From the NCBI GenBank assembly GCA_003152315.1, contig PLZV01000058.1, positions 1-64,000 on the forward strand: a stretch of DNA of 64,000 nt, in the 5' to 3' direction. The notes below the pieces were generated by a model, which saw only the letters and a program-made list of their open reading frames with translations, did no database searches and was not told where the DNA came from. Both the position numbers and the translations under genes were made by a program. This DNA comes from Verrucomicrobiota bacterium. GTDB taxonomy: Bacteria; Verrucomicrobiota; Verrucomicrobiia; Palsa-1439. Positions 1 to 53,528 of the stretch are shown here, piece by piece (the stretch's first letter is position 1; every line of letters starts with the position of its first letter).

Positions 1-115
1 GGCTGTCGATCTGGTTGCGCAGGACGCGGTTCTCCTCAAGCAGATACTCGATTCTGCGTAACAGGTCTTCGTTGACGCTGCCGGTGATGTAAGCCAGCAT
101 TCGTTTCCAACGCAT
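1..115 (-). pseudogene. N-terminal part of a DDE integrase-type transposase, cut by the window edge
   Basis: The minus strand opens with ATG at 115 and reads 38 codons to the window edge (MRWKRMLAYITG..., then NEDLLRRIEYLLEENRVLRNQ). This matches the start of integrase-core transposases common in Planctomycetes and Verrucomicrobia, in which a coiled 'EYL..EN..LR.Q' helix precedes the helix-turn-helix. A GAGGAG ribosome binding site lies about 7 bases upstream. Because the rest lies outside the window, I cannot tell whether the gene is intact; 'pseudogene' here means partial. The family assignment rests on recall of sequence pattern only. Confidence 0.6.
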
Positions 116-181
116 GGATTGCTCCTCGGCCCGATGCTACCCGAGGACATTCAGCGAGGACGAGTTCTTTGACCCTACGGG

Positions 182-397
182 TTGCACAATCTGGCCATCG
201 GCCTGGGCTGGCTACCGTGGGTGGTGCTCGTGCCCAAAATGTGGCCTAAGATTAAAGCGAAACCCAAGCGGGGTATTACGCAGGATGAGCATATGCGCAT
301 CGTTTCGCCTGACAAAAATCGGGAGCGAAGCTTGTATTACGAGCTGCTATGGGAGATTGACGCCAATAGCAAAGTGGTTGGATATTGCTGTTCGTAA
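182..397 (+). pseudogene. Internal fragment of a tyrosine recombinase (integrase)
   Basis: The frame reads NLAIGLGWLPW, then WPKIKAKPKRGITQDEHMRI and NRERSLYYELLWEI. This is the join between the N-terminal SAM-like domain and the catalytic core of integrases frequent in Verrucomicrobia (pattern 'KRAIT.EEH..I......ER..FYEL.W..G'). After LLWEI the homology stops and the frame closes in unrelated residues, so the catalytic R...HxxR...Y residues are absent. It is a relic of a mobile element. A second integrase fragment lies at 21678-21983, so the catabolic cluster between them is flanked by recombinase debris. Confidence 0.5.
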
Positions 398-840: not shown

Positions 841-2643
841 TCAGTATTTCCCATAAAGTGGCCCAAAGTTCCGACACGCCGCGAACTCGGCAGCCTGCGG
901 TTCGTTCGCGCCGAATTCGATCCAGGCGCTCGGGCGAAAAATACGCTTTTCGTCGATGTTGTGCATGTAAACTGGAATGCGCAACATCGCGGCGAGCGTG
1001 ATCAGTTCGTCTCCAATGTGGCCACAGCTGAACGCGCAATGATTGGCACCCCAGTTGTTCATCACGGTATATACGTCGCCGAACGCTCCACGGCCGGTCG
1101 TCCGCGGCACAAACCACGTCGTCGGCCAGGTCGGATTCGTACGCTGGTCGAGCGCATCGTGAACCGACTCGGGCAATTCGATGGTGACACCCTCGGCGAT
1201 CTGCAGGGCCGGCCCCAGTCCTTTAATCAAGTTGATGCGTGCCGCCGTGATCGGCATGCCGCCGCGCGTGCGGAAGTGCGTGGAGAATCCGCCGCCATGA
1301 AAGTATTCGTAGATTGCGGGACACCATTTCGTCGCCTGGAGACATTTGCCGGCTTCGTCGGGCGTGATTTCCCACCATGGTTTCATCGCCGGTTGGCCCC
1401 CGACCGCTTGTTGGCCTGTGCCGTCAAGTGCCGCCGGGCCGCTGTTGACGAGGTGGAGAAATCCGCCGGCGGCGTCGCCCTTGAGTTTATGGCCTGTGAC
1501 GCGCCTCACCGCGTCGGTGCTCCAATACGTCCGAACATCGGCGAATACTTGCGCGCTGCCGGTTAGCAAATGACCGAAAAGCATCGTCGCCGCATTGAGC
1601 GCGTCGTTCTCTGTAGCGACGACAAACGGCTGGCGAATACCGTTCCAGTCAAACGACGAGCAGAGGACCGCTTCGAGAAAATCGCCGTTGGGCAAATGAT
1701 CGGTCCACTGGCGCTGGCCCTGGAAACCCGCGGCGATGGAATTGTGGCCGAGCGATTCCTCACCGAATCCCATCTGGGTGAGGCGCGGGTTGCCGATCAT
1801 GAGATCACGAACGATCAGCGCCATCTTCACGCAATATTCCCATTCCTTGCCTTTCGCGTCGCGCGAACGTTGCTTCTTCGGATCGTTGGGGTCGAGACCT
1901 TCTTGACAGTTTTCGCGGACCCATTTCCATGCGCGGGAAAATTCCTTTTGATCGAAAACGCCGCGTTCGATACGGCGGACAAGTTCAACCATATCGACAC
2001 CCATCACGCGCATGCCGAGATAGGCTTCGAAGAATGCGCAGTCCACGACCGAGCCGGCAATGCCCATCGAGGAGCCGCCCAGCGACAGGTAGGATTTGCC
2101 CCGCATTGTGGCGACCGCCAACCCGGCGCGGGTGAACCGCAGGATTTTTTCCTGCACATCGTCCGGAATCGTCATGTCGTCCGGGTCCTGCACGTCGCGG
2201 CCATAGATGTTGAAGATTGGCAGCCCTTTCTGGTTGTGCCCGGCTGATACGGCGGCTAGATAGACCGCGCCCGGTCGGGCCGTGCCGTTGAAGCCCCATA
2301 CGGCCTTCGGTAACAACGGATCCATGTCCATCGTTTCGCTGCCGTAGCACCAGCAGGACGTAACGGTGATCGAAACGCCCACGCGTTCCCGTGCGAATTT
2401 CTCGGCGCACATCGACGCCTCGGCAATTCCGCCGATGCAGCGGTCGGCGATGACACAGTGAACTTTCGTGCCATCGGCATGACGCAGTTTCTTGCCCAGC
2501 AATCCGGCCACGCTTTTGGCCATGTTCATCGTTTGCCTCTCCAGCGATTCACGCACGCCGCCGAGTCGTCCGTCGATGGTTGGACGGATACCGATTTTGG
2601 GTGGTTCTCCCACGAGACGGTTAACGGGACGATTGACTTTCAT
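841..2643 (-). CDS. fucI: L-fucose isomerase
   Basis: This 600-residue protein aligns along its whole length with recalled E. coli FucI, including [30 protein letters not shown] and the C-terminal YGPLY. The metal and catalytic residues appear as Glu345 (VATEND), Asp369 (FADVRT) and His535 (WGANH). It converts L-fucose to L-fuculose with a divalent metal in the cytoplasm. The ATG at 2643 is chosen because it follows an AGGAAGG ribosome binding site and gives the family's N-terminus; an open frame upstream overlaps the permease gene. It is the last intact gene of the minus-strand cluster. The aldolase after it is decayed and no fuculokinase is visible, so the second step must be done elsewhere. 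Confidence 0.97.
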
Positions 2644-2659
2644 CAGATTGCCTTCCTGT

Positions 2660-3724
2660 TCAGGTTGACTGCCTATGGCGCACGCGGTCCAGGGCGACCG
2701 CAGCAATGATGATGCCGCCGATCACCATTTCCTGGACCCACTTCGGCCAGCCCATCTGCTGGCCGCCGGTGTACAAGACGGTGATCGTCAACGCGCCAAT
2801 GAGCGTGCCCAAAACCGATCCTTCGCCCCCGGTGAAACTCGCGCCGCCGATGATCACCGCGGCGATGACAAACAGTTCGTACGTCAGCGCGGTCGTTGGC
2901 TGTCCCACGCCACCGATGTAGGAAAACTGCATCAAGCCGGCCACGCCACAAAAAAAACCGCACAGCGTATACACGATCAGTTTCGTCAGCCCGACCCGGA
3001 CGCCGCACAGCCGCGCCGTTTCCTCGTTGGAGCCGACGGCGAAAATGTGCCGGCCCAACCGCGTATACCGCAAGAGAAAGGAGGTTACCAGCACGCCTCC
3101 GATCAGGATCCATACGCCCGTGGGCAATAACCATCCGCTGCTGGTCTTGCTCGTCAACGTTGGGTCCATCAAGCTGCCGATCCAGGTGGATTCAGGCGGG
3201 TAGATGTCGCGTTCGTTCGCCATCCCTTTGGCCAGACCACGAATGACTCCCATCGTGCCCAGCGTCACAATGAACGGCATCAACCGGAGCCCGACAATCA
3301 GGCAGCCGTTTGCCAGACCGGCCAGGGTCGCGGCCCCCACGCCGGCGGCCACCGCCATGATCGAGGCCAGCGCCGGGTGCTGGTAAACAAAGTAGTGCGC
3401 GTCGGCGGACGCCACGGTCGCGGCGCCGGTGGCTCCCCCCCAGTTGAGCGTCGCCGCAACGGTGATGACCGAGAGCGCGATCATTGAGCCGACCGACAAA
3501 TCGATTCCGGCCGCGATGATCACCAACGTCATGCCCAGGCCCGCGGTCGCGTACACGGCGCTCTGGCGCAGTATGTTTTCCAGATTGCGCAGCGTGTAGA
3601 ACTTCCCGCCCTCCACCAGCACGGCAAAGAAAACGAACACCACAACCAACGCCAGGAACCGGCCCAGAATGTCCACCCATCTCGATTTGAAAAGAGACGA
3701 TTCTGCAAACGCCGCTCCGCTCAT
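2660..3724 (-). CDS. Sugar ABC transporter permease (CUT2/RbsC type)
   Basis: The 354-residue protein is strongly hydrophobic, with about 8-10 membrane segments. It carries the RbsC-type signatures [13 protein letters not shown] near residue 75, GLANGCLI, and [15 protein letters not shown] near the end. It forms the membrane channel for the upstream ATPase (3721-5211) and binding protein (5266-6234). The ATG at 3724 overlaps the ATPase stop as ATGA, so translation is probably coupled; the open frame extends further upstream but only as a shadow of the ATPase gene. Only one permease is present, so it presumably works as a homodimer. Its place next to fucI suggests L-fucose as substrate, which is inference. 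Confidence 0.93.
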
Positions 3725-14304: not shown

Positions 14305-15802
14305 GCAACACCTGTCCCGTTGCCGCGGCGATGACCCGTTCCGCTGTCGCTTCCTCCCGAGGGAACTCGGCCACGATCCGACCTTCGCGCATCACCAGGA
14401 TACGGTCGCTCATCGCCAGTACTTCCAGCAGGTCCGAAGAAATCATCAACACCGCCATCCCTTCGGCCGCCAATTCACTGACCAGCCGGTGCACCTCCGC
14501 TTTCGCACTGATGTCGATGCCGCGGGTCGGTTCATCGAGAAGCATCACTTTGGGTTTGGTCGCCAGCCACTTGGACAGCACGACCTTCTGCTGGTTGCCG
14601 CCCGACAACTCCCGTATCGGCTGGTCAATGCCGCGCAACTTCACATCGAGGCGCTTGACTCCGATGCGCGCGACGTCCCGCGCCATCGCATCTCGCCGCC
14701 AACCAAACCTGGCGAGACGGTCGACAATCGCCAGCGTCGTGTTCTGCCAAACGCTCATAGGCATCAGCAAGCCGTGGCGTTGACGCTCCTCTGGTACCAG
14801 CGCCAACCCCTTCTTCATCGCCCCGCGTGGCCCGGCGACCTGGACCGCCTGGCCGCCGATACGAATTTCGCCCGCATCGATCTTCTCGATCCCGAAAATG
14901 GCGCGCGCGACTTCCGTTCGTCCGGCGCCGACCAACCCTGCCAGGCCGACCACCTCGCCGGCGCGCACCTGCAAAGTGATGTCCGAGAATTGGCCGGCAC
15001 ACGTCAACCGACGCGTTTCCAGCGCGATCGAACCAATCGCATGTTTCACATCCTTCGCAAACAACGCTGCCAGCGGACGGCCGACCATAAGTCGCAGAAT
15101 TTCATCAATCGACGTCTCCTTCGTCAGTCGTTGGCCGACAATCTCGCCGTCGCGCAATACGGTGATTCGGTCGCAGATTTCGAAGATTTCCTCCAACCGA
15201 TGTCCGATGAATGCCAGTGCCGCGCCCCGGTCGCGCAATTGCCGCAGGATGCCGAACAACCTCTCCACTTCGCTCGGCGTCAACGCCGCGGTCGTCTCGT
15301 CCATCAGCAAAATCTTCGCGTGCTGCGACAGCGCCGAGGCCATCTCCACCATTTGTTGATCGGCGATCGACAAGCCGCGCACTTTCGCCCGAGGATCGAT
15401 TTTCACGCCGAGCGATTCAAGAATCTCCGCCGCCTCGCGGTGCACGGCATTCCAGTCAATCCGACCGTGGCGGCGCGGCTGGCGACCAATGAAAATGTTT
15501 TCCGCCACGCTCAAATCAGGAAACGTCAGCGGCTCCTGGTGGATCAGCGCAATTCCCTGCGCGATGGCATCGCAGGGACGGTGAAAATGAACGGTGCGCC
15601 CGTTGACCTGGACTGTCCCGGCGCGCGGCGTGTGCACGCCGCCAATGATCCTCGCCAGCGTCGATTTGCCGGCACCGTTCTCTCCGACCAAAGCATGAAT
15701 CTCACCCGGGAGCAGATCGAGACTGGCATTTTTGAGCACATCCACGCCTTCGAACGCCTTGTACAGGCCAACAGCTTTGACAAGCGGGACTTGTTCACCC
15801 AT
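14297..15802 (-). CDS. rhaT: Rhamnose-type ABC transporter ATP-binding protein (RhaT-like)
   Basis: The 501-residue protein has two ABC domains. The first carries GENGAGKST near residue 40, LSIADQQ and [10 protein letters not shown]. The second carries [16 protein letters not shown] and [10 protein letters not shown]. The order ATPase, two permeases, binding protein matches LsrACDB/RhaTPQS systems. The ATG at 15802 overlaps the end of the rhamnosidase gene by eight bases and has GGTGA upstream; an ATG four codons earlier is also possible, and the longer open frame is a shadow of the rhamnosidase gene. The name refers to the ABC ATPase, not to the E. coli rhamnose-proton symporter of the same symbol. 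Confidence 0.93.
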
Positions 15803-18500
15803 GGGAATCACCATTAGCCAGCAACCGCACCGGGCCGAGAAGACCGCTGGAATGCACTTGTGCCTGAGCTGGGTCGTAATCCCTGTAGGCACGGTTGACG
15901 AAAAAATATCCCGGCCATTTGCCCGGACCTTTCCAGTCGGCGGCGGCAGCGGCGATGGCGTTTTCTGTTCGGTTCGCCACCCTGATGACAATCTCGTTTT
16001 CCCCGGTGTGGACCAGACCGGTGACCTCGACTCGAAACGGGGCCTCGAAAACGGTCCCCGCCGACTTTCCGTTTACGCACAAGGACGCGACATCGCACAC
16101 CGTACCCAGATCCAGAAACACACCGCCTTGCGGTTCATGCGAGAGGTGGAATCTTGTTCGATAGATCGCCGTGCCAGCAAAGTGTTTCAAGTCGTTCATT
16201 TTCGACCAATCAATCAACTCGGGAAACTCCCTAACAAACGACTTGCGCCCATCGATGTGCTGAAACTCGACGCGCCAGGGGCCTTTTATCGCGACGAGTG
16301 AAGTGGCGTCGCCTGTCAGAACTGATACGAGACCTGTGGCGGGCTTGTCGCGTCGGATCATTGCCAGGCGTGATTCCTTCGGACCGATCGCGATCTCAGC
16401 TATCACACGGTCACCCTCGATGCGGTAAGGAGCGAGTTCTATCTTCCCGCTGTGAGCGTTCCAGAGTTCCAAACAGCCCTTGGCGCGGAAGGAGAACGCC
16501 TGGCGAATGGAATTCTCGGGCTGTGGATTATTCAGCAGGAACAGATCATAATCGGCTCCCTGACGGTGCAACCAGCGGACCGGAAGCTGATCGTCGGCTT
16601 TCAACTGCGGTTCGACGCCGATGCTCTGCAGAGCGGAAGTGATACCTTGGTTATCCACCCAATACGCGGCCCCTTTGCCAATCTCTCGCGACTGTGTTCC
16701 TGTCTTGTCGGGGAAAAGATCGACAACAATTCGGTGGAGTTTGGCCGTCTGAGTGTCATGATCCTTAAAGCCCGGGACTTCCGACGGTAATCGCAATGCC
16801 ACAACTGTGAGACCTCCCTCAACGAGGGTCTGAACCTTCTCGAGCGTCTCCAGCGGCATCGCCGCCGCGTCCAGAATCAGTACGCGGTAACGACCGAATC
16901 CCGTCATGAGACGGTCACCGTCCATTCTCGCGGACTGGCAGAGGACTCGATCCGTCAAGCGGTCGGACAGCCAGGATGTTCCTTGCGGAGAATTGTGGGT
17001 GCCATACTCGCAGACGTCCGCGACGGGTTGGCCGGACCGGAGTAGCAGGCTGTTGCGGCCCATGTAATCTGCCAGGACACGAAAGTAGGGCCAGAAAGAA
17101 TTGTTATGGTCGATCTCACAAGCGGCATAAAAATCCCATCCAGGAAAGCCGGCTGCCGGCGGTGAATAGCTATATCCGTGAAACACCAGTTGGCTGGCGC
17201 CGTTGGCAAAGATCGTATCCGCCTGTTGGCGGAGATCGTGCATGGTCATCCGCCAATGTTCCGTCAACCACGTGAAGCTCTCACAAGAAACCACGGGATG
17301 CCCGTAAACATGCCCCGCCGCCCGTGCCAGGTCGGCTCCGATCGGTACGTCTCCCGGCGCTTTGAAGTTCATCTCGAACTCGGGAATATCCGCCATGCCA
17401 TAGGAATCTTCCCAGTCGGTCGGACTGCCGTGAGCTTGCGCGCGTGACTGCAGGCCGTGCTGGTGGCACCAGCGGGTCAGTTCGCCGTAGCAATTCTCCG
17501 TGATCAGCTCACGCAACGTTTGGTCGTAGTCCCACCGAATCTGCGAGGCGATACCTTCATCGGAACCGCTGATCATGTGAAGGTACGGAGTCAGATCGTA
17601 GCCGCGCCGCGTGCGAAACTGTTGGAGAAAATCGGTTGTCCATGTGGGCCTGCCGAGTTCCCAACTATCGATGAAGAGGCTCTCGAACGTGCTGCCGGTA
17701 AGATTGCCGACTCGGTTCAGCACCGGCTGGACGCAGTGGTTCAGGTGAAAATCCATCGCGGACGCGCTCAGGTGATCCAGCACCGGACCTTTGTCCCGGG
17801 GATTGACCCGTTTGTGCGGGCCGACGCCACCGAGCTTCGCCCAAAAACACGTCAGCAACCATTTGCCTTCCGGCACGGACACGGAGATTTGACCATCGGC
17901 CGGTAGTTCGTTTGTCACCACCTTCGCCGGCTCGACGCTGCCAACGCGTCGTAGCGTCACGGCCACCACCGGACCACGCGGCTGGAAAATTGCGTGACCC
18001 TCGCCCGCGCCATCGAGTGAAACTGTTTGTGAGTCCAGGCTCTGACCGGCGTGCTCGTTGTCGACCCACGGTCCGGCATACGGCCAGCCGCTTCCGGGAG
18101 TCAGGTCCACCTTCAGGCCCAGCTTGGCGGCTTCTTCGATGCACGCCGCGACACGGTCAGCCCATTCCGGCGACGCGTACACAACTGGCTTGTGACCGCG
18201 CACGATCGGCAACGCATCATAAAGGGACTGGATCTCCACACCCGCCAGACCCTGCTCCTTCATCCCCCTCAATTCGCGGGCCAATTCCTTCCGTGTTACG
18301 GCTCCGCCGAACCACCAGTAGCGTGTGCGCGGTCGATATTCCATCGGTGGATCGGCAAAGTCGCGCTGAAGCTGCGCCGCTGTCGGCAGGATGTCCGCCA
18401 CGGACACGGTGGAAAGGAGGCCACCGACCACGATGGCACAAAGCGTGAACCGATTCCTGGCCGATGTTCTCAGGGCATCGAATTGGAACAGGCGTTTCAT
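15795..18500 (-). CDS. Alpha-L-rhamnosidase, GH106, exported
   Basis: The 901-residue protein starts with a signal peptide of about 38 residues (hydrophobic core FTLCAIVVGGLLSTVS). It then shows the GH106 N-terminal signature RPRTRYWWFGGAVT, with KEQGLAGVEIQ and DLTPGSGWPYAGPW. SFIDSWE-like LFIDSWELG and the EFEMNFK region belong to the catalytic barrel. A C-terminal beta-sandwich (about 790-900) resembles the galactose-binding fold of GH2-like enzymes. It would release alpha-L-rhamnose for the importer encoded directly downstream, whose ATPase gene overlaps it by eight bases. Confidence 0.88.
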   Translation of the reverse strand: MKRLFQFDALRTSARNRFTLCAIVVGGLLSTVSVADILPTAAQLQRDFADPPMEYRPRTRYWWFGGAVTRKELARELRGMKEQGLAGVEIQSLYDALPIVRGHKPVVYASPEWADRVAACIEEAAKLGLKVDLTPGSGWPYAGPWVDNEHAGQSLDSQTVSLDGAGEGHAIFQPRGPVVAVTLRRVGSVEPAKVVTNELPADGQISVSVPEGKWLLTCFWAKLGGVGPHKRVNPRDKGPVLDHLSASAMDFHLNHCVQPVLNRVGNLTGSTFESLFIDSWELGRPTWTTDFLQQFRTRRGYDLTPYLHMISGSDEGIASQIRWDYDQTLRELITENCYGELTRWCHQHGLQSRAQAHGSPTDWEDSYGMADIPEFEMNFKAPGDVPIGADLARAAGHVYGHPVVSCESFTWLTEHWRMTMHDLRQQADTIFANGASQLVFHGYSYSPPAAGFPGWDFYAACEIDHNNSFWPYFRVLADYMGRNSLLLRSGQPVADVCEYGTHNSPQGTSWLSDRLTDRVLCQSARMDGDRLMTGFGRYRVLILDAAAMPLETLEKVQTLVEGGLTVVALRLPSEVPGFKDHDTQTAKLHRIVVDLFPDKTGTQSREIGKGAAYWVDNQGITSALQSIGVEPQLKADDQLPVRWLHRQGADYDLFLLNNPQPENSIRQAFSFRAKGCLELWNAHSGKIELAPYRIEGDRVIAEIAIGPKESRLAMIRRDKPATGLVSVLTGDATSLVAIKGPWRVEFQHIDGRKSFVREFPELIDWSKMNDLKHFAGTAIYRTRFHLSHEPQGGVFLDLGTVCDVASLCVNGKSAGTVFEAPFRVEVTGLVHTGENEIVIRVANRTENAIAAAAADWKGPGKWPGYFFVNRAYRDYDPAQAQVHSSGLLGPVRLLANGDSHG

Positions 18501-18526
18501 TTGTTTTGTGCCGCGAACTCGCTGGC

Positions 18527-20665
18527 CTAGGGCGCGGGTTTCAATCCCTCCCAGTGGACGACCCATTGCCCGTTGTCGGGAAAGCCGGGTGCGTGCTTCT
18601 TCGGCGCGCCGTCCCAGCCCGCGGCCATCATCGCGACCGCGTACAGCAGGCCGCCGTTGCCGGGCAAGTAGATGGTCAGGTCGGGACGCTGGTAATTGTG
18701 ACCATTGATTTGGTAGTGGTTCTTCGGCGCATCGAGCAGCAATGCGTCCACGGCCAGCTCCGGTTCACCCAGACGCGCGGCGCACATGGCAACCATCGGA
18801 TAGTCCCAGCCCCATGTGTCGGGCCAGTTCCAATTGCCCCAAATCCAATGGAGCGTGCGCCGCATGGTCTCCGGGTCCACGTCCGGTCCCGGCAACATCC
18901 CCAGCGCGGCCGTCACCGAAGGATGATCATTCACCCATTTTTTTTGAGAATACGTTTCCGTTGCCGTCTCCGTGAATAAATATTTGTCGTCGGCAACCGG
19001 AGGTTTGGCCAGATGTTGCAGTACCTCGTCCCACTTCTCGACGCGCGGCAAGCCGAGCCGCTCACGCCATTGCTGCGCCACCTGCAGACCCCAGCGCCAG
19101 TAGGTCAGTTCGAAGGTCGGATCCAATGTGTGGTCCTTCGGGAAGATTTCCTGCGCACACTGCAATATCGGCCCCAGCACATACCGCTTCGTGTCCTTGT
19201 CCCAAGCGGGGTAGGACGCCATGAACTCGGCCGTTTCGAAAACGATTCCCTTGTACTTCTCCAACGTGGCGCGATCCGAATGAGTCCGGTAGCACAACTC
19301 CGCATAGAAAATCGGGTGCGGTTGTTGCCAGATCAGAAACGGTCCCACCGGCGATGGTGATTCGGCGCCGCTTGGGTTGGTCATCTTGGGCCAGCGCGCG
19401 CCGGTGTATCCCTGCCGCTTTGCCGTGCCCTCTGCGCGCGGCAGGATGGACTGATAGTATCCGAGGCTCTTTTCCAAGAGCGGGAGGCGGTTCCACAATG
19501 CGAAATGAGCCGCATGCCACCAGTGCATCTCCAAGTGGAACTTCCCGTACCAACTATTGTACGCCAGCCCGGTCTCTTGTGGAGGATAACTCCCGGCACA
19601 CTGAATGGCTGTCAGATATTGCGACAACACGATGCGCCGCTCGAGCTCCGGCCACCGTGAATCCTTGCTCCCGGACAAATCAATCGCGCCGCCCGTGCTC
19701 CAAAATCTGTTCCAGTGGTCGCGCACGCCGTCGCGGACCTGGTCGAAGGACGGTAACGTGGTGCTATCCGGCTTCGGGGTAAAGACACAGGCAAACTCCA
19801 GAGCACCGGCATCCTTTGCCGGTGTGAGCACGAAGGTGTGTTTCGCCACTTCGGCGAGCGTTGCCCCCACTGTCCAGCCTGCGGCGACGAAGTAAGAGTC
19901 GTTGTCCAGCTTGCGCACGAACGTCGCCCCCCTTGGTAGATCCTGACTCAAGCTGGTCTCGTGCGCGTCTGGTTTTGTCCAGTCCGCCGTGCTCGTGTCG
20001 CCGGTGCCGTACGGAAACTGCAGTCGAACGCCAAGCCGCCCCTGGTGCAACAGTGGCGACACCACGCGCACGGCGAGCAAATCACGCACGGGATGACAGA
20101 TCGTCTCCACGTCCACTGGTTTACCCTCGAATTTGAAATGACTGACGAGTATGCCGTCCCACAAGTTCAGGGTCTGCGCGATGTCCGTCAGGTCGTTCGT
20201 CGTCACCGTCGAACCATCCGCTTTGGTCAGTTGAAAACCGATACGACCGAGATGAAGCCGGTGCGGATTGGCGCGCAGCCAGGTTGTTTCGGCGGTGCGT
20301 TGATTGCCGGGTACATCAGCGTAGCCCACCCTGCGGTCAAGCAGATCAATGAATTCCCGGAAATGGAATTTGTCGATGCTCCAACCGTGCGGATTTGGCG
20401 ACGTGTGCCAGCCCCATTGCGAGAGCGTGCCGAGCGGAATCGTCTTCTCGTAGGCCTCGGCGAACGTCTGCAGCCCGGTCACATCCGCCGTGAATGCAAA
20501 CTCGCCGTTGCCAACTTGCAGCGGGTTTTCTGGATCGAGTTTGGCAAGCACGATATTGTGCCGCACCACCAACGCGTGGCGGTCGATCGCCGGTGTGTCC
20601 ACAACTCCAAACGCCGTTGTTGCGAGTACGCACAAAATACCGGCCCATTGGTAGTGCCTGTTCAT
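18527..20665 (-). CDS. Exported six-hairpin glycosidase, GH65/GH95-like
   Basis: The 712-residue protein has a signal peptide (WAGILCVLATTAFGV) and an N-terminal beta-sandwich, followed from about residue 330 by an alpha/alpha-barrel. Recognisable segments are AYNSWYGKFHLEMHWWHAA, GYTGARWPKM, LIWQQPHPI and the C-terminal APKNHYQINGHNYQ. This pattern occurs in proteins usually labelled GH65 or, more loosely, related to GH95 fucosidases. Substrate is unknown; an exo-activity on fucose- or rhamnose-bearing chains fits the context. The ATG at 20665 is supported by an ATGA overlap with the end of the DapA-like pseudogene; an ATG at 20692 is the alternative. Confidence 0.75.
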   Translation of the reverse strand: MNRHYQWAGILCVLATTAFGVVDTPAIDRHALVVRHNIVLAKLDPENPLQVGNGEFAFTADVTGLQTFAEAYEKTIPLGTLSQWGWHTSPNPHGWSIDKFHFREFIDLLDRRVGYADVPGNQRTAETTWLRANPHRLHLGRIGFQLTKADGSTVTTNDLTDIAQTLNLWDGILVSHFKFEGKPVDVETICHPVRDLLAVRVVSPLLHQGRLGVRLQFPYGTGDTSTADWTKPDAHETSLSQDLPRGATFVRKLDNDSYFVAAGWTVGATLAEVAKHTFVLTPAKDAGALEFACVFTPKPDSTTLPSFDQVRDGVRDHWNRFWSTGGAIDLSGSKDSRWPELERRIVLSQYLTAIQCAGSYPPQETGLAYNSWYGKFHLEMHWWHAAHFALWNRLPLLEKSLGYYQSILPRAEGTAKRQGYTGARWPKMTNPSGAESPSPVGPFLIWQQPHPIFYAELCYRTHSDRATLEKYKGIVFETAEFMASYPAWDKDTKRYVLGPILQCAQEIFPKDHTLDPTFELTYWRWGLQVAQQWRERLGLPRVEKWDEVLQHLAKPPVADDKYLFTETATETYSQKKWVNDHPSVTAALGMLPGPDVDPETMRRTLHWIWGNWNWPDTWGWDYPMVAMCAARLGEPELAVDALLLDAPKNHYQINGHNYQRPDLTIYLPGNGGLLYAVAMMAAGWDGAPKKHAPGFPDNGQWVVHWEGLKPAP

Positions 20666-21353
20666 ACGCGTGAGCAGGGGGACAACTTCCATTCCTCAAA
20701 GCGTGCCCGCAACTTGGCGACGGTCTGACTGTGAATTGCAGCCGAAGTCTTGGAGACGACCATCTTGGGGTGACCGGGTTTCAAGCCGCGCGCCTCCATG
20801 CCGGCTGCGATGCTAAGGGGGAAGGTGAGTCGGTCCATCGCTTTCCCCACTTCACGCATTCGCCTGCCAGCAAGGCCCGGTTGGTGGGTTGCCCCTGTCG
20901 GTATATGCGAAACTGTTCCAGAAGATATTCCGAGACGATATTCACCAATCCGCCGATGCAACTGGCCGCGCCGAGCGCGAGCGCTTCCGCCAGACGCGTG
21001 TCAATGCCCGAGAATACAAGGAAGTGTTTTTCTCGTCTGAGTCTAATCAGTCGCTGGTGATACGCGAACTCCGCGCCGCTGTGCTTGATGCTCGCCATCG
21101 GCGCGGCCAGTTCAAGGACGAGTTCGAGGATGGTCTTTCGTTCTTCGACCGTACATCGGACAAACTCGCCCGTGCTGCTCACCGCAAGGACGCCGTGAAT
21201 GCCACACGCACGCGGCCACGCGAGGTGTGCTTCGAGCGCGCGTTTCATCACTCGACCGCGGGCGTCCGCCAGAATCGTCAGTGCGACGAGAACGCCTTCG
21301 TGTGAAAACGATGTCTTCGTAGGTGGCCTCAAAGTGGAGTGATGCCGCGGCAT
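20662..21353 (-). pseudogene. Broken DapA-family (dihydrodipicolinate synthase-like) aldolase
   Basis: The first frame (from ATG 21353) reads a DapA-family N-terminus (GVLVALTILADARG, GIHGVLAVSSTGEFVR, then ELVLELAAP). It jumps straight to MASIKHSGAEF, which holds the Schiff-base lysine, so roughly 75-90 residues with the catalytic Tyr are missing. Near 20870 the reading frame shifts and homology continues in another frame (MREVGKAMDRLTFPL, AAGMEARGL, then TVAKLRARFEEW) to a stop that forms ATGA with the glycosidase start. It was probably the first gene of the minus-strand operon, perhaps a keto-deoxy sugar acid aldolase. It is not functional as read here. Confidence 0.8.
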
Positions 21354-21456
21354 GTTTTTTCTTGCCCTATGACAAATTGTACAGCCAGATCACCAATGAA
21401 ACACACTCTTCCCCCTACAAGCCTGATGAATATGAAGCTTGCGCGACGGCATAAAG

Positions 21457-21502
21457 TGGCGCTTCCGCCCCGATTCGAACAGGGAACTGCGGTTTAGGAA
21501 AC
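21457..21502 (-). other. 3' end of a tRNA-Arg(CCU): attachment-site remnant
   Basis: On the minus strand the sequence gives, in order, a 7-base anticodon loop with CCT, the anticodon 3' stem, a 4-base variable loop, a perfectly pairing T stem (CCCTG/CGGGG) around TTCGAAT, seven acceptor bases, a discriminator G and an encoded CCA. The 5' side of the anticodon stem matches only two of five pairs and no D-arm or acceptor 5' strand follows, so this is half a tRNA. Such anticodon-to-CCA pieces are the classic duplicated core left by tyrosine recombinases that integrate at tRNA genes. An integrase fragment lies 175 bases away. Confidence 0.75.
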
Positions 21503-21677
21503 ACGAAAAGCGTTTGCGTCCGCTGGGTCTATATTCCTCTGAATACATAGTTGCTTTCAATGACTTGTGCGAGGAGAATCTGATTGTCGAAACTGCGCCA
21601 AGATGTGTGGATCTGAGGCGAAATGTAGGAATTCATGGCGATTGAAATTCGGCTGGAAATACGGTCGGAACTCGACA

Positions 21678-21983
21678 TCAGTCTTGTACCAGCTTGATCG
21701 AAATCGGATCACCGGGGCAATCGACTACTATGTTCAACAAGTGCTGCAGTACCGGACTTCACCTATCGTGTCAGACGTGATCAAGCGAATGCTGGAGGAA
21801 CTGAAGACTGGAGGGCGACGCGAAGCAGCCATCCGCACGTTGCGCTGTTTCCTCGGTGAAGCCCTCACCCTTCAGTTCGGTGACCGACAATTGTCGACGG
21901 TTGCCCTGGATGAACTCAACGGCATCTGCTTGGTGCCCGATTTGAAACCCGCGCTGGTCCGTCAATCGATTGACAATCTCCAA
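21678..21983 (+). pseudogene. N-terminal fragment of a tyrosine recombinase
   Basis: The frame reads TGAIDYYVQQVLQ, then IVSDVIKRMLEELKTGGRRE, TLRCFLGEALTLQFGDRQLS and TVALDELNGI. This matches the core-binding (SAM-like) domain of verrucomicrobial integrases, pattern 'SV.EVV.EML..K...G.S......LR..L..FA..FG.R.L..IT..EL'. No start codon context is convincing. Homology ends where the IS5-like transposase sequence begins, so the gene was probably interrupted or deleted there. The frame stays open further by chance. The assignment is by pattern recognition only. Confidence 0.5.
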
Positions 21984-21984
21984 T

Positions 21985-22583
21985 CGGATGCGGCGTTGGG
22001 AGCGCAACTGCCAGAGCCACTCGATCAATGTGCCGGTGTACCCTCCGTTGGTGCAGATCACACGCAACCGACCAGAACAGTGGCTGAGGAACGACAACAG
22101 CAACCGCGCCCCAGCGCGGTTTGGCACCGCCGCCGGCGTGACCGCGACCGCCAAGACCAGCCCGCAGATATCGACCAGCAGATGCCGTTTGCCGCCCCGA
22201 ATCTTTTTACCCGCATCGAAACCGCGTTCTCCGGCTTGATCGGCCACCATGACCGATTGGCTGTCAATGATGCCGGCGGTCGGGTTGGTGTGCTTGCCAG
22301 CGGTGCTACGCACGACCATGACGAGGACATCATGAATGGGTTGCCAGATCCCTTGGCGACGCCACCGGCGAAAGTACCCGTAGACCGTGGGTCACGGGGC
22401 AAACTCGCGGGGCAACATCCGCCACGGACAACCGGCACAAACCGCATACAAAATGGCATCCACAATGAGACGCCGCTGGTAAACCGGTGGGCGGCCGAAC
22501 CCGCCGAAGGCGGGCACCAATTCCGCGATCAGGCACCACTGTTCATCGGTCAGACTGCTGGGATAGCTGAGGATGGATTGCAT
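21985..22583 (-). pseudogene. IS5-family transposase, nonsense-mutated and truncated
   Basis: From ATG 22583 the frame reads LTDEQWCLIAELVPAFGG, GRPPVYQRRLIVDAILYAV and PWRMLPREF. It then meets an in-frame TGA at 22392-22394 where the family has Trp, and continues in the same frame as TVYGYFRRWRRQGIW, IIDSQSV and KIRGGKRHLLVD. The second catalytic site, normally A-D-G-G-Y, reads TNGGY, so the Asp has become Asn. The C-terminal part with the catalytic Glu is gone after WQLRSQRRIRLEIV. Three independent lesions make it inactive. Confidence 0.85.
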
Positions 22584-22625
22584 CCCAAGCCAAAATCAAA
22601 TTCTGGGACTATCCGGAAGGAAACA
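21985..22625 (-). mobile_element. Dead, truncated IS5-family insertion sequence
   Basis: A transposase reading frame of IS5 type (see next entry) occupies the minus strand from 22583. Its C-terminal third is missing, and beyond about 21985 the sequence becomes an integrase fragment. I could not find a clear pair of terminal inverted repeats; the sequence near 22606-22625 may be the surviving right end. The left end appears deleted. Limits given are approximate. Confidence 0.65.
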
Positions 22626-22697
22626 CCACCACCCGCCCCACTTTCGACACGCGCTCCTGGATGGGCAGCGCGTTTTATGATTGACATCGCTCATTAA

Positions 22698-23516
22698 ATG
22701 GAACACACTGTTTGTACTCTGAAAGTTCCTCTGCACATCGTGAAGGCTCGCCGCGAGCAGTTGGCCGAACTGCTGCAACGCAACCGATTCTTATCGTTAG
22801 CCGAGTTGTGCAAACAGCTTGACGTCTCAGTGGCAACGGCACGGCGCGATTTGGCGGTATTGGAGCGGGACAACGTCATCACTCGCACTTGGGGTGGCGC
22901 GTTAGTGGACTACAACCAGCGGTTCCCATCCTTTCGGGAACGACAGTTCAAGGCGCATACCGCCAAACGCCAGATCGCGTTGGCGGCACTGCGGTTGATC
23001 AAGCCGGGGATGGTTTGCTTCTTCGACAGCGGCAGCACGGTGTACGCAATTGCTGAAGCGCTAACGGTCAAGCCGGTTGCCGGATTGAGGGTCGTTACAA
23101 ACAACCTTCCCGTCGCCGACATGCTGTCTGACCTGAAAGAGCTGCATGTGGAAGTTATTGCTGGTCAGTATCTGGCGCGGCAATCGATCCTTATGGGCGA
23201 ACAGGCGCGGCGTAGCTTACGGTTGTGGAACTTCGACCTCGCGTTTCTCAGCGCGGAGGGCATGACGCAGGCAGGGTTGTGGAACTCACAAGCGGACGTG
23301 GTCAAATTCCAACGCGCAATCGTGGAACGCATCCTGCGTGCGTACTTCTGTCTGGACGCCAGCAAGCTAGAGCATGAGGCTGCGGAGTTTCTACTGCCGT
23401 GGACAGCGATACCCGGCTTGATCACGAATGCGACCCCGGAAAGATTGAAGGCAGCAGGCATCCATTTGTCGCGTAAACAAATCATCCATGCCCGATCGAT
23501 GGGAACGTCGGCATGA
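22698..23516 (+). CDS. DeoR-family transcriptional regulator
   Basis: The 272-residue protein has a DeoR winged helix at about 15-75 (RREQLAELLQRNRFLSLAEL, VSVATARRDLAVLE, TRTWGGAL). A sugar-phosphate-sensing domain follows, with FFDSGSTVYAIAEAL, VVTNNLPVADML and CLDASK. Such repressors usually control adjacent sugar operons and release DNA when they bind a phosphorylated sugar. It lies 58 bases upstream of the rhamnose operon on the same strand and may control it, with rhamnulose-1-phosphate a natural candidate effector. The ATG lies just after the mobile-element debris, so its original promoter may have been replaced. Confidence 0.9.
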   Translation: MEHTVCTLKVPLHIVKARREQLAELLQRNRFLSLAELCKQLDVSVATARRDLAVLERDNVITRTWGGALVDYNQRFPSFRERQFKAHTAKRQIALAALRLIKPGMVCFFDSGSTVYAIAEALTVKPVAGLRVVTNNLPVADMLSDLKELHVEVIAGQYLARQSILMGEQARRSLRLWNFDLAFLSAEGMTQAGLWNSQADVVKFQRAIVERILRAYFCLDASKLEHEAAEFLLPWTAIPGLITNATPERLKAAGIHLSRKQIIHARSMGTSA

Positions 23517-23574
23517 AAACTCCCTGCCTGATCGCCGAAACCAAGATCAGAGAACTCGAAACCGCTTTTCCCCG

Positions 23575-24420
23575 ATGAATCTGCAAGCATCCAACCCACT
23601 ACTGGACGTGATCACCGAACTCTCGCACGAGTTCGGCACCGCCGAGTACGTCAAGGGCGGAGGCGGCAACACCTCGGCCAAGACAACGGACACACTTTGG
23701 GTCAAGCCATCCGGCACAACCCTGGCCGGGCTTACGCCAGAATCATTCGTGGCGATGGATCGCAAGAAGCTCGCACAACTTTTCGAGATTGAACCGCCGT
23801 CGGATTCAAGCGCGCGCGAAGCGCTCGTCAAAGACATGATGGCCGACGCCGTCAAACCCGGTAGCACAGGGCGGCCGTCCGTCGAAGCGCCCTTGCACGA
23901 CATCATGCCCGGCACGTTTGTCGTGCACACCCACTGCACGATCGTCAACGGCATGACGTGCGCTCGTCACGGTGCGGCGGCTTGCGCGCGGCTGTTCCCG
24001 GACGCGCTCTGGGTTCCGTACGTTGATCCCGGTTTCACGCTCTGCATGGAAGTCCGTCGCCGGCTTCGCGGGCAGCGGTTGGTCATCCTCGAAAACCACG
24101 GTATCTTCGTTGCCGGCGAGTCCGCCAACGAAGTGCGCGCGACGTACCATCGTGTGATTGACGCGTTGCGCGCCGAATATGCAAAAGCCGGTATCGCCAC
24201 AGAATTGAAGATTGTTTCGCCGGCCGCACCCGAGCCGGTCACACCGGATCACATTGTCTACAGCAAGAAACCGAAACTGGGCCCGGCAATGGCCGCCGAC
24301 GCCGCGCTGATCCGGCAACTTGCAAATGCATTTGGCGGAGTCCGACTCCTTGATGACCGTGCCCGCCACTTTATCGAAACCTGGGAGGTCGAAGCCTACC
24401 GGCAAACGCGAATTTTATGA
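23575..24420 (+). CDS. Class II aldolase, probable rhamnulose-1-phosphate aldolase
   Basis: The 281-residue protein has the class II aldolase hallmarks. These are GGGGNTSAKT and WVKPSGTTLAGLT for phosphate binding, Glu104 in PSVEAPLH as catalytic acid/base, and His118, His120 (VVHTHC) and His175 (ILENHGIF) as zinc ligands. Directly ahead of rhamnose isomerase and kinase it most likely cleaves L-rhamnulose-1-phosphate to DHAP and L-lactaldehyde; substrate is inferred from context. ATG 23575 begins the conserved protein. Its stop overlaps rhaA as ATGA. It may cover for the aldolase half lost from the chimera at 36022-37725. Confidence 0.87.
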   Translation: MNLQASNPLLDVITELSHEFGTAEYVKGGGGNTSAKTTDTLWVKPSGTTLAGLTPESFVAMDRKKLAQLFEIEPPSDSSAREALVKDMMADAVKPGSTGRPSVEAPLHDIMPGTFVVHTHCTIVNGMTCARHGAAACARLFPDALWVPYVDPGFTLCMEVRRRLRGQRLVILENHGIFVAGESANEVRATYHRVIDALRAEYAKAGIATELKIVSPAAPEPVTPDHIVYSKKPKLGPAMAADAALIRQLANAFGGVRLLDDRARHFIETWEVEAYRQTRIL

Positions 24421-25652
24421 GCACCGCTAAACAACAATACGCTGCACTCGGCATCAACACCGACCGCGCTATCCGCCAAGCGCTGGGGACTTCCATCTCG
24501 ATGCATTGCTGGCAGGCCGATGATGTCGGCGGCTTCGAGGTGAAAGAAGCCGGGCTGGCCGGCGGCGGCATCATGGCCACCGGCAACTATCCCGGCCGCG
24601 CCCGCACGCCGGATGAAGCCCGGCAAGACTACGAGCAAGTGCTGAAACTTGTCCCCGGCACGTTACGGCTCAACCTCCACGCCTGTTACGCCGAGACCGC
24701 CGGCAAGATCGTGGACCGCGACGCGCTCGAACCCCGACACTTCGCGAACTGGATGGCGTGGGGAAAACAACAACGCGTCCATCTCGATTTTAACCCGACG
24801 TTCTTCGCCCACCCGAAGGCCAACGATGGCTTCACACTGTCGCACACCGACAGAGCGATCCGGCAATTCTGGATTCAGCACGGCATTGCCTGCCGGTACA
24901 TCGCCGAAGCGATGGCCAGGAAGCAAGGCGGCCCGTGCGTCGTCAATTATTGGATACCGGACGGCTGCAAAGATTATCCCGCTGACCGGTGGACGCATCG
25001 GGCACTGCTCACCGAATCACTCGACGCGATCTTGCGGAAACAGTCAAGGCTTTGCGTGGACTACGTCGAAAGCAAATTATTCGGCCTCGGCAGCGAAGAA
25101 TATGTCGTCGGCTCGGCGGAATACTACAGCAGCTACGCGCTCAGCCGCGGAATCGGCTACTGTCTCGACATGGGGCATTGGCATCCAACCGAGGAAATCT
25201 ACGACAAGATTTCTGCGTACCTCCAATTCCACAAGAAACTGCTCCTGCACGTCAGCCGTCCGGTCCGTTGGGACAGCGACCATGTCGTCCTCTTCAACGA
25301 CGCCCTGCGAAACATCTTCCTCGAAATCCAGCGCGGCCACGCGTGGGACCGGGTGGCGCTGGCCACCGACTACTTCGACGCCAGCATCAACCGAATCGCG
25401 GCCTATGTCATCGGCCTGCGCGCCACGCGCAAAGCAATCCTTTACGCGCTGCTCGACCCAACGGTGAAGTTGAAGAAACTCGAAGCCGCCGGCGACAACG
25501 CTGGCCGCCTCGCATTGATGGACGAAATGAAAACGATGCCCTTCGGCGCGGTGTGGGACGAACTTTGCCGGCAAGCCGATAAACCACCGGATCGTGCGTG
25601 GATGGACGAAGTGCGCCAGTACGAAACGCGAATCCTTTCGCGGAGAACGTGA
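24417..25652 (+). CDS. rhaA: L-rhamnose isomerase
   Basis: The 411-residue protein matches recalled E. coli RhaA over its length: SMHCWQADDVGGFE, ATGNYPG, LNLHACYAE, LDFNPTFFAHP, DGFTLSHTD, VESKLFGLGSE, CLDMGHWHPTE, HVSRPVRWDSDHVV, YFDASINRIAA and LEAAGDNAGRLAL. It converts L-rhamnose to L-rhamnulose with Mn2+. The start overlaps the aldolase stop by four bases. It is the second gene of the operon, and rhaB begins three bases after it. Confidence 0.97.
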   Translation: MSTAKQQYAALGINTDRAIRQALGTSISMHCWQADDVGGFEVKEAGLAGGGIMATGNYPGRARTPDEARQDYEQVLKLVPGTLRLNLHACYAETAGKIVDRDALEPRHFANWMAWGKQQRVHLDFNPTFFAHPKANDGFTLSHTDRAIRQFWIQHGIACRYIAEAMARKQGGPCVVNYWIPDGCKDYPADRWTHRALLTESLDAILRKQSRLCVDYVESKLFGLGSEEYVVGSAEYYSSYALSRGIGYCLDMGHWHPTEEIYDKISAYLQFHKKLLLHVSRPVRWDSDHVVLFNDALRNIFLEIQRGHAWDRVALATDYFDASINRIAAYVIGLRATRKAILYALLDPTVKLKKLEAAGDNAGRLALMDEMKTMPFGAVWDELCRQADKPPDRAWMDEVRQYETRILSRRT

Positions 25653-25655
25653 GCG

Positions 25656-27115
<1,460 letters not shown>

Positions 27116-27119
<4 letters not shown>

Positions 27120-40856: not shown

Positions 40857-41177
40857 AACCAGTCGCACTGGCACCCGCGCGTACCTATGGAAAGCTGTCG
40901 GCATCCTGATAGACAAGGCGACGGTGATGAAGGCCGGATGCGATGCCAATTTCATGTGCGCAGACTTTATCTAAACCGCACATGTGTGCGTGACTAGTTG
41001 CTCGTGTGGCAGGTGGGACCCCGAGTATGCTAAACGATATACAATTGGCGGAGAAGTCGGTGGAGACGGGTTTCAAGGCATGATCATAACGGTGGACGAT
41101 GCGGACTACCAATTATGCTGTCATCGGCGGCGTTGTTCATGCAGCAGTACTTTGATGTCGCGTTCGCTCGGTGCAGC
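40857..41177 (+). promoter_or_regulatory. Intergenic region with a shared upstream motif
   Basis: These 321 bases contain no convincing gene. At 40984-41004 the sequence reads GTGTGCGTGA, three bases, then GTTGCTCG, a motif repeated upstream of two other extracellular genes at 50940 and 58325 and more loosely at 61114. It lies about 175 bases before the GH128 gene. A regulatory role is inferred from recurrence alone. Confidence 0.4.
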
Positions 41178-44100
41178 ATGTTGAAGACAATCCTTAAAGC
41201 AATCGTGGGGAGACCCCTCCGTTTCGCTCCGGTGTCGCGCATCACGGTGCAATGCGCGGTGGTCGCGCTGTTTCCGCTGGTCGCCGCGGGACAGACCTTG
41301 ACCATCACCAATGGGATCCAAGTTTACACGGCTCTGACGAACACGACGGTCACGATGACCGGTCAATGTGAGTTGCGACTCACGGACGCCAGCAGCCCGC
41401 TTTCCGGCTGCACAATCAATCTGAATTCCCCCGACGCGTGGCTGTTTCTGTTAAATGTGCGGCCGTCAGTTGTTTCTACCGGTGCTGCCAATTACCTCAG
41501 CCAAATCCAAGTGAATGGCGCGGCGGCGGTCGTGGGCACCAATGTCCGGGTGGATGAATACGTGATGGGTAGCGTGATCGTCCCGCAACCGCCGAGTTAT
41601 ACGCCCATGCAAGTGTTCAGCAACGCGCATTTCATCGGGTCATCGACGCTCTTGGGACTGTACACATACTACACGAACAACGTTCTGGGCGTGATGAACA
41701 AGAACATCGGGTCATTTATCTTGAAGCGCGGCTATTCATGCACGTTGGCGCAGAACGCGGACGGCACAGGTGTCAGCCAACACTATGTGGCGCAGGATGG
41801 CGACCTCCAAGTGGGTGTGTTGCCGACGGGGCTGGATCATGCCGCCACTTTTGTGCGGGTTTTCCCCTGGCGTTGGACGGCCAAAAGAGGGTGGGCGGAT
41901 ACTGCCGGAGACAATGCGCTCGTGCATGTTTATTGGTTTTACGATTGGGGTAACGGAAGGACTTCCACGTCGGACTCGGAATACGCTCCCATGCAATGGG
42001 GTGGGGGATACACCACCGGCATCAACAGCAAACAGAAGTCCACATCGCTTCTCGGGTTCAACGAGCCGGACGAGACCAGCCAGGCCAACCTGACTGTGTC
42101 GGCCGCCATCTCCGACTGGCCGAACCTGGTGCACTCGGGTTTGCGGTTGGGCTCGCCGGCGGTCTCCGATAGCTCCGGCACTGGCGTGGGAAAGAATTGG
42201 TTGTATACTTTCATGGGTGAGGCAACGAACCTTGGCTTTCGCGTCGATTTTGTGCCCATCCATGCTTACTGCCCCTCCTCGTCGGCCTCGGCACTGACCA
42301 GTTATCTGGCTGACGCTTATAGCAAGACGAAGCGGCCGATCTGGCTCACGGAATTCAACTATCAGGCGACCTGGTGCGGCAGCACACCCACGTACGACCA
42401 GGACGCCGTCGTGGTCAGTAACATGATTGTCGCGCTGGAAGCCGCTCCCTATGTGGAACGGTACTCGATCTACAACTGGGTCGGGGAGACCCGCTCCATG
42501 ATTGGCAGCAATGGCGCGCTGACCGAAGCGGGAATCCTCTATCGCGACATGCCATCCACAATGGCCTACTTACAGGCGCTGCCAGCGGCCGGGAGCCGGG
42601 GCATCGCGCAATTTGAATTTGAGAACAATACCTTGGACAGTTCCGGTTATGGCAACAACGGGACCGCGGTGGGTATTCCCACGTACGCGCCCGGCCACAC
42701 GGGACAGGGGATCGTGCTGGACGGCACGAACAGTTACGTCCAGCTTCCACCAAGTGTGGCCACCGGCCAGTCCTTTAGTTTTGCCGCCTGGGTGTATTGG
42801 AACGGTGGGGCAAGCTGGCAGCGCATTTTTGATTTCGGGAATGATACGACCCACTACCTGTACCTGACGCCGAATTCGGGCAGCGGCACGTTCCGTTTCG
42901 CAGCTCTCAATGGCGGCAGTGAGCAGAGGCTCGAAACCCCCTCGCCACTGCCCGTTGGTCAATGGGTTCACGTGGCGTTCACGCTCAGCGGCAACAACGG
43001 GAGGCTCTACACCAACGGCCTCCTCGCGGCGTCTTCAACCAGCTTTACGATCAGTCCGGCCAGCTTCTCACCGGCCTTGAACTACCTTGGCAAAAGCCAG
43101 TTTGCCGCCGACCCGCGGTTTAATGGCGAACTGGATGAGGTCCAGGTAGCGGACACTACGTTTACAGCCGCGCACGTTGCCGCGTTAATGACCGACTCGC
43201 CCCCGCAATTCGCTACCAGTCTCCTTCCACGGGGGACCGCCACGCGGGGGACGCCTTACACCAACGATATCATGGGTACGGCGAGCGATCCGGATCCGGG
43301 GGACACATTCACCTATAGCAAGGCCGGCGGCCCGGCCTGGTTGAATGTGGGTCCAGACGGAAGCCTCGCTGGCACGCCGGGGTCCAGCGATGGTGGCACG
43401 AACTACTTCACCGTGCGCGCCACCGATGCGGCTGGTGCGAGCGGGTTTGCCCTCGTGATGGTCATCCTGCCGCCCTTGCCGATCGTCAATACCAGCGGGA
43501 CGTGGGCCATCGATACCAGCGGAAGCTGGAGTGATAGCAACAAGTGGAGCGGCACCCTTGTCGCCAACGGCGCGGGGTTCACCGCTGATTTCAGCACGTT
43601 GTCCCTCAGCGCCGACCGGACGGTCGATCTGGACAGCTCCCGCAGCATCGGCACCTTGAAATTTGGCTCTTCCAGCGCGCATAACTGGATCGTGTCTTCC
43701 ACCAACAACAGTGTTTTGACCCTTAACGGTGGGAGCCTCAATGGGGCGGGTTCGATCGTGGTCAATCAAAACACGGTAACCATCTCCGCCTCTCTGGGTG
43801 GAACGAACGGTTTCACCAAGAGCGGCACGGGTACCCTGGTTGTTAGTGGCTTCAATACGTTATCCGGCACACTCAACGTGGACACTTCGCAACCCTCGAC
43901 CGGCAACGATGGTATCGTCCGGTTGGTCGGGCCTGGCGCGGACGGAGGCGTTTCGACCATTAACATCGGCGATCAGAATTCCGCCACTTCCACCTTGCAA
44001 TTGGACGGCACCACCGGAGATGTGGGTGTGTCGGCCCGCTTCACCGTGAATTGCCGCAACACCAGCGTGGCGACGATCGAGAATTTTGCGGGCACGAACA

Positions 44101-52787: not shown

Positions 52788-53528
52788 ATGGATCCAAAGC
52801 CCTCACCCAAAAACACTTCGCTCCGTTGGCTGGTTGTTTTTGTTGTTGTCGCGGCGATAACCACGATCTTCTTGTTGCGACGAGACGGGGGCCGGAGCCG
52901 CGACTTGCCGGGTCACACCTCGGCTGCGACGGGTACCGTCGTGCGGACTTCACCGGTGCCTGTCGCCAAAGCAGTTGTGTCCAACGAAGCGAGCCGGCGG
53001 CCAGAGACAACCACGTACGCTTCGTTTCAAAAACGTCCTTTTCAGGTAGTGACCGCCAGCAACGACTACGAATGGACTGCGGAAGACGGCAAGAGCACGA
53101 ATGTGATCCGTCAGCTTGCCCACAACGACCTGGAATATCAACGGATGGTGGAGGAAAACTCTCGGATCATTCGTCGTCAACTGGTCTATGACAAGGATAC
53201 CGCCGCCGCATTGATCGAACGGGCCAGATTGACGGGCGAACCGATTCGACGCCTCACCCTGCCGGGATTGGATGGTCAGGAAGTGGAGTTCGAGATCACG
53301 AAGGCGGATCTCAATCCCTCGGGACAACAAGGGATGTTCGCCGGGCGCGTCGCTGGCCGGGCGGACTCGATGGTGACATTGGCGTTCAAAGGCGGCCGCG
53401 AGGCGTTCACGGTCATCTCGCCATCGGAGAACCTGTTTCTCCAGGGCGACCCCCATGAGCCGGGCGATCTCATCGTGAAGAGCATTGACCCGGATACGTA
53501 CGTGCTTGGTGTTTGTGGAAACCCATGA
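52788..53528 (+). CDS. Membrane-anchored protein resembling a metallopeptidase propeptide
   Basis: The 246-residue protein has one N-terminal membrane segment (about 13-30, LRWLVVFVVVAAITTIFLL) and a Ser/Thr/Pro-rich stretch. A conserved-looking domain follows (EWTAEDGKSTNVIRQLAHND, RQLVYDKDTAAALIERARLT, LPGLDGQEVEFEITKADL, MFAGRVAGRADSMVTLAFKG). I recall similar segments as the N-terminal part of verrucomicrobial proteins carrying reprolysin-like peptidases. Here it is a separate gene whose stop overlaps the start of the metallopeptidase-like gene as ATGA. A chaperone or inhibitor role for that partner is inference. Confidence 0.6.
   Translation: MDPKPSPKNTSLRWLVVFVVVAAITTIFLLRRDGGRSRDLPGHTSAATGTVVRTSPVPVAKAVVSNEASRRPETTTYASFQKRPFQVVTASNDYEWTAEDGKSTNVIRQLAHNDLEYQRMVEENSRIIRRQLVYDKDTAAALIERARLTGEPIRRLTLPGLDGQEVEFEITKADLNPSGQQGMFAGRVAGRADSMVTLAFKGGREAFTVISPSENLFLQGDPHEPGDLIVKSIDPDTYVLGVCGNP

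Follow-up and report, generated by a model that had tools for sequence, protein, structure and literature searches.

A decayed junction of mobile-element pieces between two fucose/rhamnose catabolic clusters, probably inside a genomic island at a tRNA-Asn gene of a Verrucomicrobiota bacterium

Among described systems, the islands found at the ssrA gene of Dehalococcoides come closest to the locus analyzed here: they carry catabolic cargo, lie in tandem, are each bounded by short 3′ repeats of the target RNA gene, and some of their members lack an integrase of their own (PMC3146451). They use a serine recombinase and a tmRNA target, whereas the island described below has a 26-nt core from tRNA-Asn, the remains of a tyrosine integrase and sugar genes as cargo. 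The tRNA-Asn genes of Klebsiella pneumoniae are likewise presented as integration hotspots (PMC4891358); the islands in question belong to another phylum and bear virulence and microcin cargo. Recombination of an element with the 5′ part of a tRNA gene is known but uncommon, according to the passage of PMC6563490 that cites Zhao and Williams (2002), and such elements stand in reverse orientation at the tRNA, as do the relatives of the integrase discussed below. Tycheposons also pair a tRNA with a tyrosine recombinase (PMC10872708). Compared with the last two groups, our locus keeps fragments only, and the 5′ half of its tRNA is unrecognisable. A further parallel is found in Escherichia coli, where an IS5-family element lies between the divergent deoxy-sugar operons fucPIK and fucAO, next to a promoter (PMC11894529). 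That insertion sequence is active and acts through a fusion promoter, while the one studied here is dead and reads away from the neighboring operon.

The window, by which we mean the whole analyzed stretch of 64,000 nucleotides, belongs to a 125-kb contig (C41) of the source genome (G000), a 62-contig draft that is 95.8% complete; two congeners, G001 and G002, served for comparison. Positions 21354-22697 contain three broken mobile pieces, and the tRNA-Arg half, the integrase fragment and the IS5 relic that an earlier note had reported there were all confirmed. This scar stands between two fucose/rhamnose catabolic clusters (Table 1), the left one of which also encodes a RhaS-like binding protein and a sugar ABC ATPase. 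Taking all the evidence together, we consider it probable that these pieces form a dead junction within a genomic island built up by accretion, with the history set out below.

Table 1. Features of the window, with the evidence for each.
Feature	Position	Strand	Basis
IS copy end at contig edge; also C5:332398-332579 and C30 end	1..181	+	95-97% identity
Left-end piece of tRNA-Asn island family; also C5:244795-244987 and C58:18903-19097	182..376	+	84-87% identity, C5 orientation
L-fucose isomerase, left cluster	844..2706	-	NF008220/TIGR01089 above cut-off
GH106 alpha-L-rhamnosidase, left cluster	15798..18566	-	PF17132 E=1.7e-90
DHDPS-family aldolase pseudogene, internal deletion and frameshift, left edge of scar	20662..21353	-	profile match, sequence reading
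tRNA-Arg(CCU) 3′ half, nt 31-77, CCA included; putative decayed attachment core	21457..21502	-	alignment to intact gene
Spacer, no significant similarity; may hold decayed tRNA 5′ half, element end and integrase start	21503..21653	.	not found by HMM; rank 16 of 1252 in pairwise scores
Fragment of a tyrosine integrase (residues 80-180) lacking the catalytic domain	21654..21950	+	similarity to C5 integrase
IS5-family relic, one end kept, transposase 3′ end deleted, frame broken	21946..22656	-	DUF4096 + DDE_Tnp_1
Conserved predicted operator with -35 TTGACA (22681-22686), rha operon	22676..22696	+	comparison with homologous operons
DeoR-family regulator, right cluster	22698..23516	+	profile and homologue comparison
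Class II aldolase, rhamnulose-1-P aldolase-like; real start probably 23577 by sequence reading	23488..24420	+	profile match
L-rhamnose isomerase	24417..25652	+	NF002203 above cut-off
Rhamnulokinase	25656..27119	+	TIGR02627 E=6.5e-145, below curated cut-off

Evidence for an island is found near the two ends of the contig and involves a tRNA other than that of the scar. At C41:120362-120387, next to the right end of an island family, the final 26 nt of tRNA-Asn(GUU) recur without change, and the flanks of this segment align with the copies on contigs C5 and C30. Across the source genome, 3′ copies of tRNA-Asn with shared ends are located at C5:244202, C5:334646, C30:73713 and C41:120362, and an island left end with a core remnant lies at C58:19690. 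One member of the family is complete, a sister island of 90.4 kb (C5:244203-334677) that runs from an intact tRNA-Asn (244127-244202) and the left end to the right end and its core. The sequence to the right of it (C5:335013-335620) corresponds to the one found in G002 just downstream of its tRNA-Asn, and therefore G002 holds the empty site and C5 the complete island. On C41, the right flank joins at position 124147 a sequence whose counterpart in G002 is 13.5 kb downstream of tRNA-Asn. At the proximal end the left-end piece was assembled, and the insertion sequence at position 1 breaks the contig before the left core. Judging from these alignments, the window is most simply read as the left half of a second island, of ~120 kb, at the tRNA-Asn hotspot, and both sugar clusters are probably cargo of that island. 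A protein search of the two congeners returned no match to the DeoR regulator, and a comparison with the same two genomes, which had no positive control, returned none to the DNA of the left cluster. The earlier note had proposed that at least one cluster arrived on, or was rearranged by, an integrative element. This holds in so far as the clusters lie on an acquired island bounded by tRNA-Asn 3′ copies and were not found in the two congeners; the tRNA-Arg event as the carrier is not supported, because the intact tRNA-Arg gene has an empty flank on its 3′ side and C41 has no partner copy. A search of C41 for relatives of the C5 integrases int1 and int2 found only the fragment in the scar and no functional integrase, so the island would be fixed or dependent, not autonomous. 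It is, moreover, a mosaic with internal duplications.

Other traits of the family were recorded along the way. Besides two integrases, the C5 island carries a gene for a ClpA-like AAA protein and genes that resemble those of restriction-modification systems, and a DeoR relic with the same operator as in the window is found near its right end. Further ends of the family lie at C30:73685-73910 and C58:17952-20008, and on both C30 and C41 the order right end, core, left end is seen at junctions, as in tandem arrays. Large secreted-type open reading frames at 41115-45446, 53513-58132 and C41:74291-81640 share related C-terminal parts, which are also present on C5 and C30, and thus represent repeated island cargo.

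As for the scar itself, the half tRNA extends from the anticodon loop (TTCCTAA) through the CCA end. The genome holds a single intact tRNA-Arg(CCU), at G000:C12:12796-12872, and the alignment of the half tRNA to it has 42 identical positions, 4 mismatches and a single one-base gap. Two parts of the intact-gene sequence each matched the window solely at the half tRNA (0 in 100 shuffles). Neither ARAGORN nor Rfam made a call on the half tRNA, because it falls below their models. The 46-base core from tRNA-Arg(CCU) that the earlier note had described is correct as to the gene, the copy being diverged rather than exact. A foreign donor, to which a reading of the variable loop and T-stem had pointed, was rejected: the gene of its own genus gives the best fit (42/46 plus one gap), other families fit worse, and no donor was matched in 384 genomes of the class at 3 mismatches or in GTDB contigs.

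In the congener G001, nt 31-77 of an intact tRNA-Arg(CCU) recur without any change, as a direct repeat, 1.5 kb further on; the 1.5-kb unit has repeated arm-like motifs on both sides, and the C-terminal piece of an integrase adjoins the second core. The G001 repeat breaks at nt 31, exactly as the window copy does, and tRNA-Arg(CCU) therefore serves as an attachment site. The half tRNA is thus well read as a core that integration at a tRNA-Arg(CCU) gene left behind, and the same nt 31-77 unit, present as a direct repeat in G001, supports the footprint of site-specific integration that had been claimed for it. The second copy of the core that was looked for is absent from C41: this contig carries neither a copy of the 5′ part of tRNA-Arg(CCU) nor a further copy of its 3′ part, and no intact tRNA-Arg. 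Having no partner, the window piece therefore marks an old, broken event. The intact gene, for its part, has an uninterrupted 3′ flank, as C12:12887-15363 corresponds (86%) to a block that in G002 sits 8.5 kb beyond tRNA-Arg(CCU).

Two observations concern the tRNA-Arg(CCU) gene in these genomes. An insert of ~8.5 kb at G002:C15:69068-77522 separates tRNA-Arg(CCU) from the block directly adjoining the tRNA in G000, and no second core was found at that insert. In the source genome, an intact integrase of another family (C12:11589-12746) is divergent from, and 50 bp away from, the only intact tRNA-Arg(CCU); it is not similar to the window fragment and was rejected as its parent.

The integrase fragment shares 72% of its amino acids with a 400-aa intact integrase at C5:253435 (int1), and 90% of its nucleotides over 235 bp. 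The catalytic domain PF00589, present in int1, is missing from the fragment, and P0001 had no Pfam match. The IS5 relic is 76% identical to a copy on C51 with an intact 266-aa transposase; it has lost ~60 C-terminal codons, and its left end is deleted at 21946. The relic does not show both terminal repeats and a target duplication, and no pair of terminal repeats was recovered for the C51 copy. The integrase and IS5 pieces overlap by ~5 bp at their junction, which suggests that they were fused by a deletion.

Immediately to the right of these remnants, the rha operon has a predicted operator that reads TATGATTGACATCGCTCATTA, with 0 mismatches to a pattern common to the regions upstream of DeoR homologues in G007, G046, G041, G023, G056 and G032 and of the C5 relic; 0.08 matches are expected in shuffles, for a pattern that was written from these same sequences. 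The gap from the IS end is 20 bp to the operator and 25 bp to the -35. The earlier note had also suggested that promoters and regulation were rewired at this point. For the rha operon this is unsupported, because an operator and -35 conserved in homologous operons survive at such a short distance from the IS end; as far as sequence comparison can tell, the operon keeps its own predicted operator beside the scar. No promoter-like site was found for the left cluster, whose first gene is dead. With regard to the regulator, the codon that aligns with the DeoR starts of homologues is a CTG at 22719-22721, where the homologues have GTG or ATG, and an in-frame ATG at 22698, 21 bp upstream of it, falls within the promoter. 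The G007 homologue (64%; G007:C3:18700-25310) heads an operon with a fucose isomerase, a kinase and dehydrogenases, and this type of regulator is therefore common to fucose and rhamnose operons.

The history we favor would begin with integration at a tRNA-Arg(CCU) gene, which would have left the half tRNA as a core. From the polarity of the half tRNA, the tRNA-Arg element would have occupied the right-hand, rha-operon side, and the left cluster would be its flank. The integrase piece, for which the nearest relative is int1 of the sister island, may be the remnant of an island integrase. An IS5-type element would have inserted just upstream of the rha -35, and a deletion at a microhomology would then have fused the interior of the IS to that of the integrase. 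The scar would by now move nothing, and the rha operon would have kept its own operator.

Two other explanations also invoke an integrase, and both assign the vanished element to the rhamnose-operon side of the scar. According to the first, which we hold as a tentative possibility, the scar is an ordinary attR of the 3′ type at tRNA-Arg(CCU), with the rha operon as cargo beside the integrase. Its breakpoint at nt 31 is that of the G001 core, and the arm-flanked unit in G001 shows that elements of the 3′ type do use tRNA-Arg(CCU). However, no intact tRNA-Arg is present on C41, the sole intact gene has an empty 3′ flank, and the branch to which the integrase belongs is known here from the tRNA-Asn island and from elements on the 5′ side of tRNA genes.

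The second explanation stems from those 5′-side elements. Within the order, 18 relatives of the integrase were compared, and nine of them are divergent from an intact tRNA gene, at 71-185 bp from its 5′ end; eight anticodons are represented, one pair (in G009) is at tRNA-Arg(CCU), and the nine integrase-tRNA pairs share a conserved end motif. Two of these elements, in which the far end could be traced, are complete and repeat the tRNA 5′ half there exactly: on C61 (G000:C61:139863-152232), nt 1-45 of tRNA-Leu(caa) recur at a distance of 12.2 kb, and at G007:C19:60957-68698, nt 1-41 of tRNA-Thr(cgt) at 7.7 kb. These two elements thus appear to recombine with the 5′ part of tRNA genes. The scar could then be the decayed integrase end of an element that rebuilds the tRNA 5′ half, with just the tRNA 3′ half and the middle of the integrase still legible; this element would have been situated on the right and would have delivered the rha operon. 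The tRNA half and the integrase piece are indeed oriented in the window as in such elements, and the summed pairwise similarity of the spacer to their ends gives it rank 16 among 1252 segments, which is a weak signal. On the other hand, an HMM of the conserved right end of the family finds nothing in the spacer, the tRNA 5′ half cannot be recognised there and has no copy on C41, and the closest integrase, int1, has no adjoining tRNA. We regard this explanation as somewhat unlikely. Elements that rebuild tRNA 5′ halves are rarer than the island biology, which is ordinary, and we find it doubtful that a member of such a family, acting on many different tRNA genes, carried an L-rhamnose operon in this lineage and that the operon was later captured in a tandem array of large tRNA-Asn islands.

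It is also conceivable that no integrase ever acted at this place and that the pieces are debris that arrived with unrelated DNA, by recombination or IS-driven rearrangement. Truncation of every piece, a pseudogene as the left neighbor and the mosaic, internally duplicated make-up of the island would all fit. An att-like tRNA breakpoint together with an integrase piece in the usual orientation of its family is nevertheless improbable by chance, and we judge this account unlikely. Finally, activation or rewiring of the rha operon by the IS5-type insertion, as by IS5 at fucAO of E. coli, where a fusion promoter is formed (PMC11894529), is very unlikely in spite of an IS end so close to the operator and the -35, given a dead element with its transposase on the minus strand, no promoter-like match and an intact native operator.

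On the reading that we favor, a dead junction inside a tRNA-Asn island, a locus for the degradation of fucose and rhamnose is linked to a defined integration hotspot. The mechanics of islands seem to be little described in this lineage, in which polysaccharide-sugar clusters would travel in islands of ~100 kb. The locus also indicates that a half tRNA can lie beside an operon without being the site through which the operon arrived, and that a scar upstream of an operon need not signal a change in its control.
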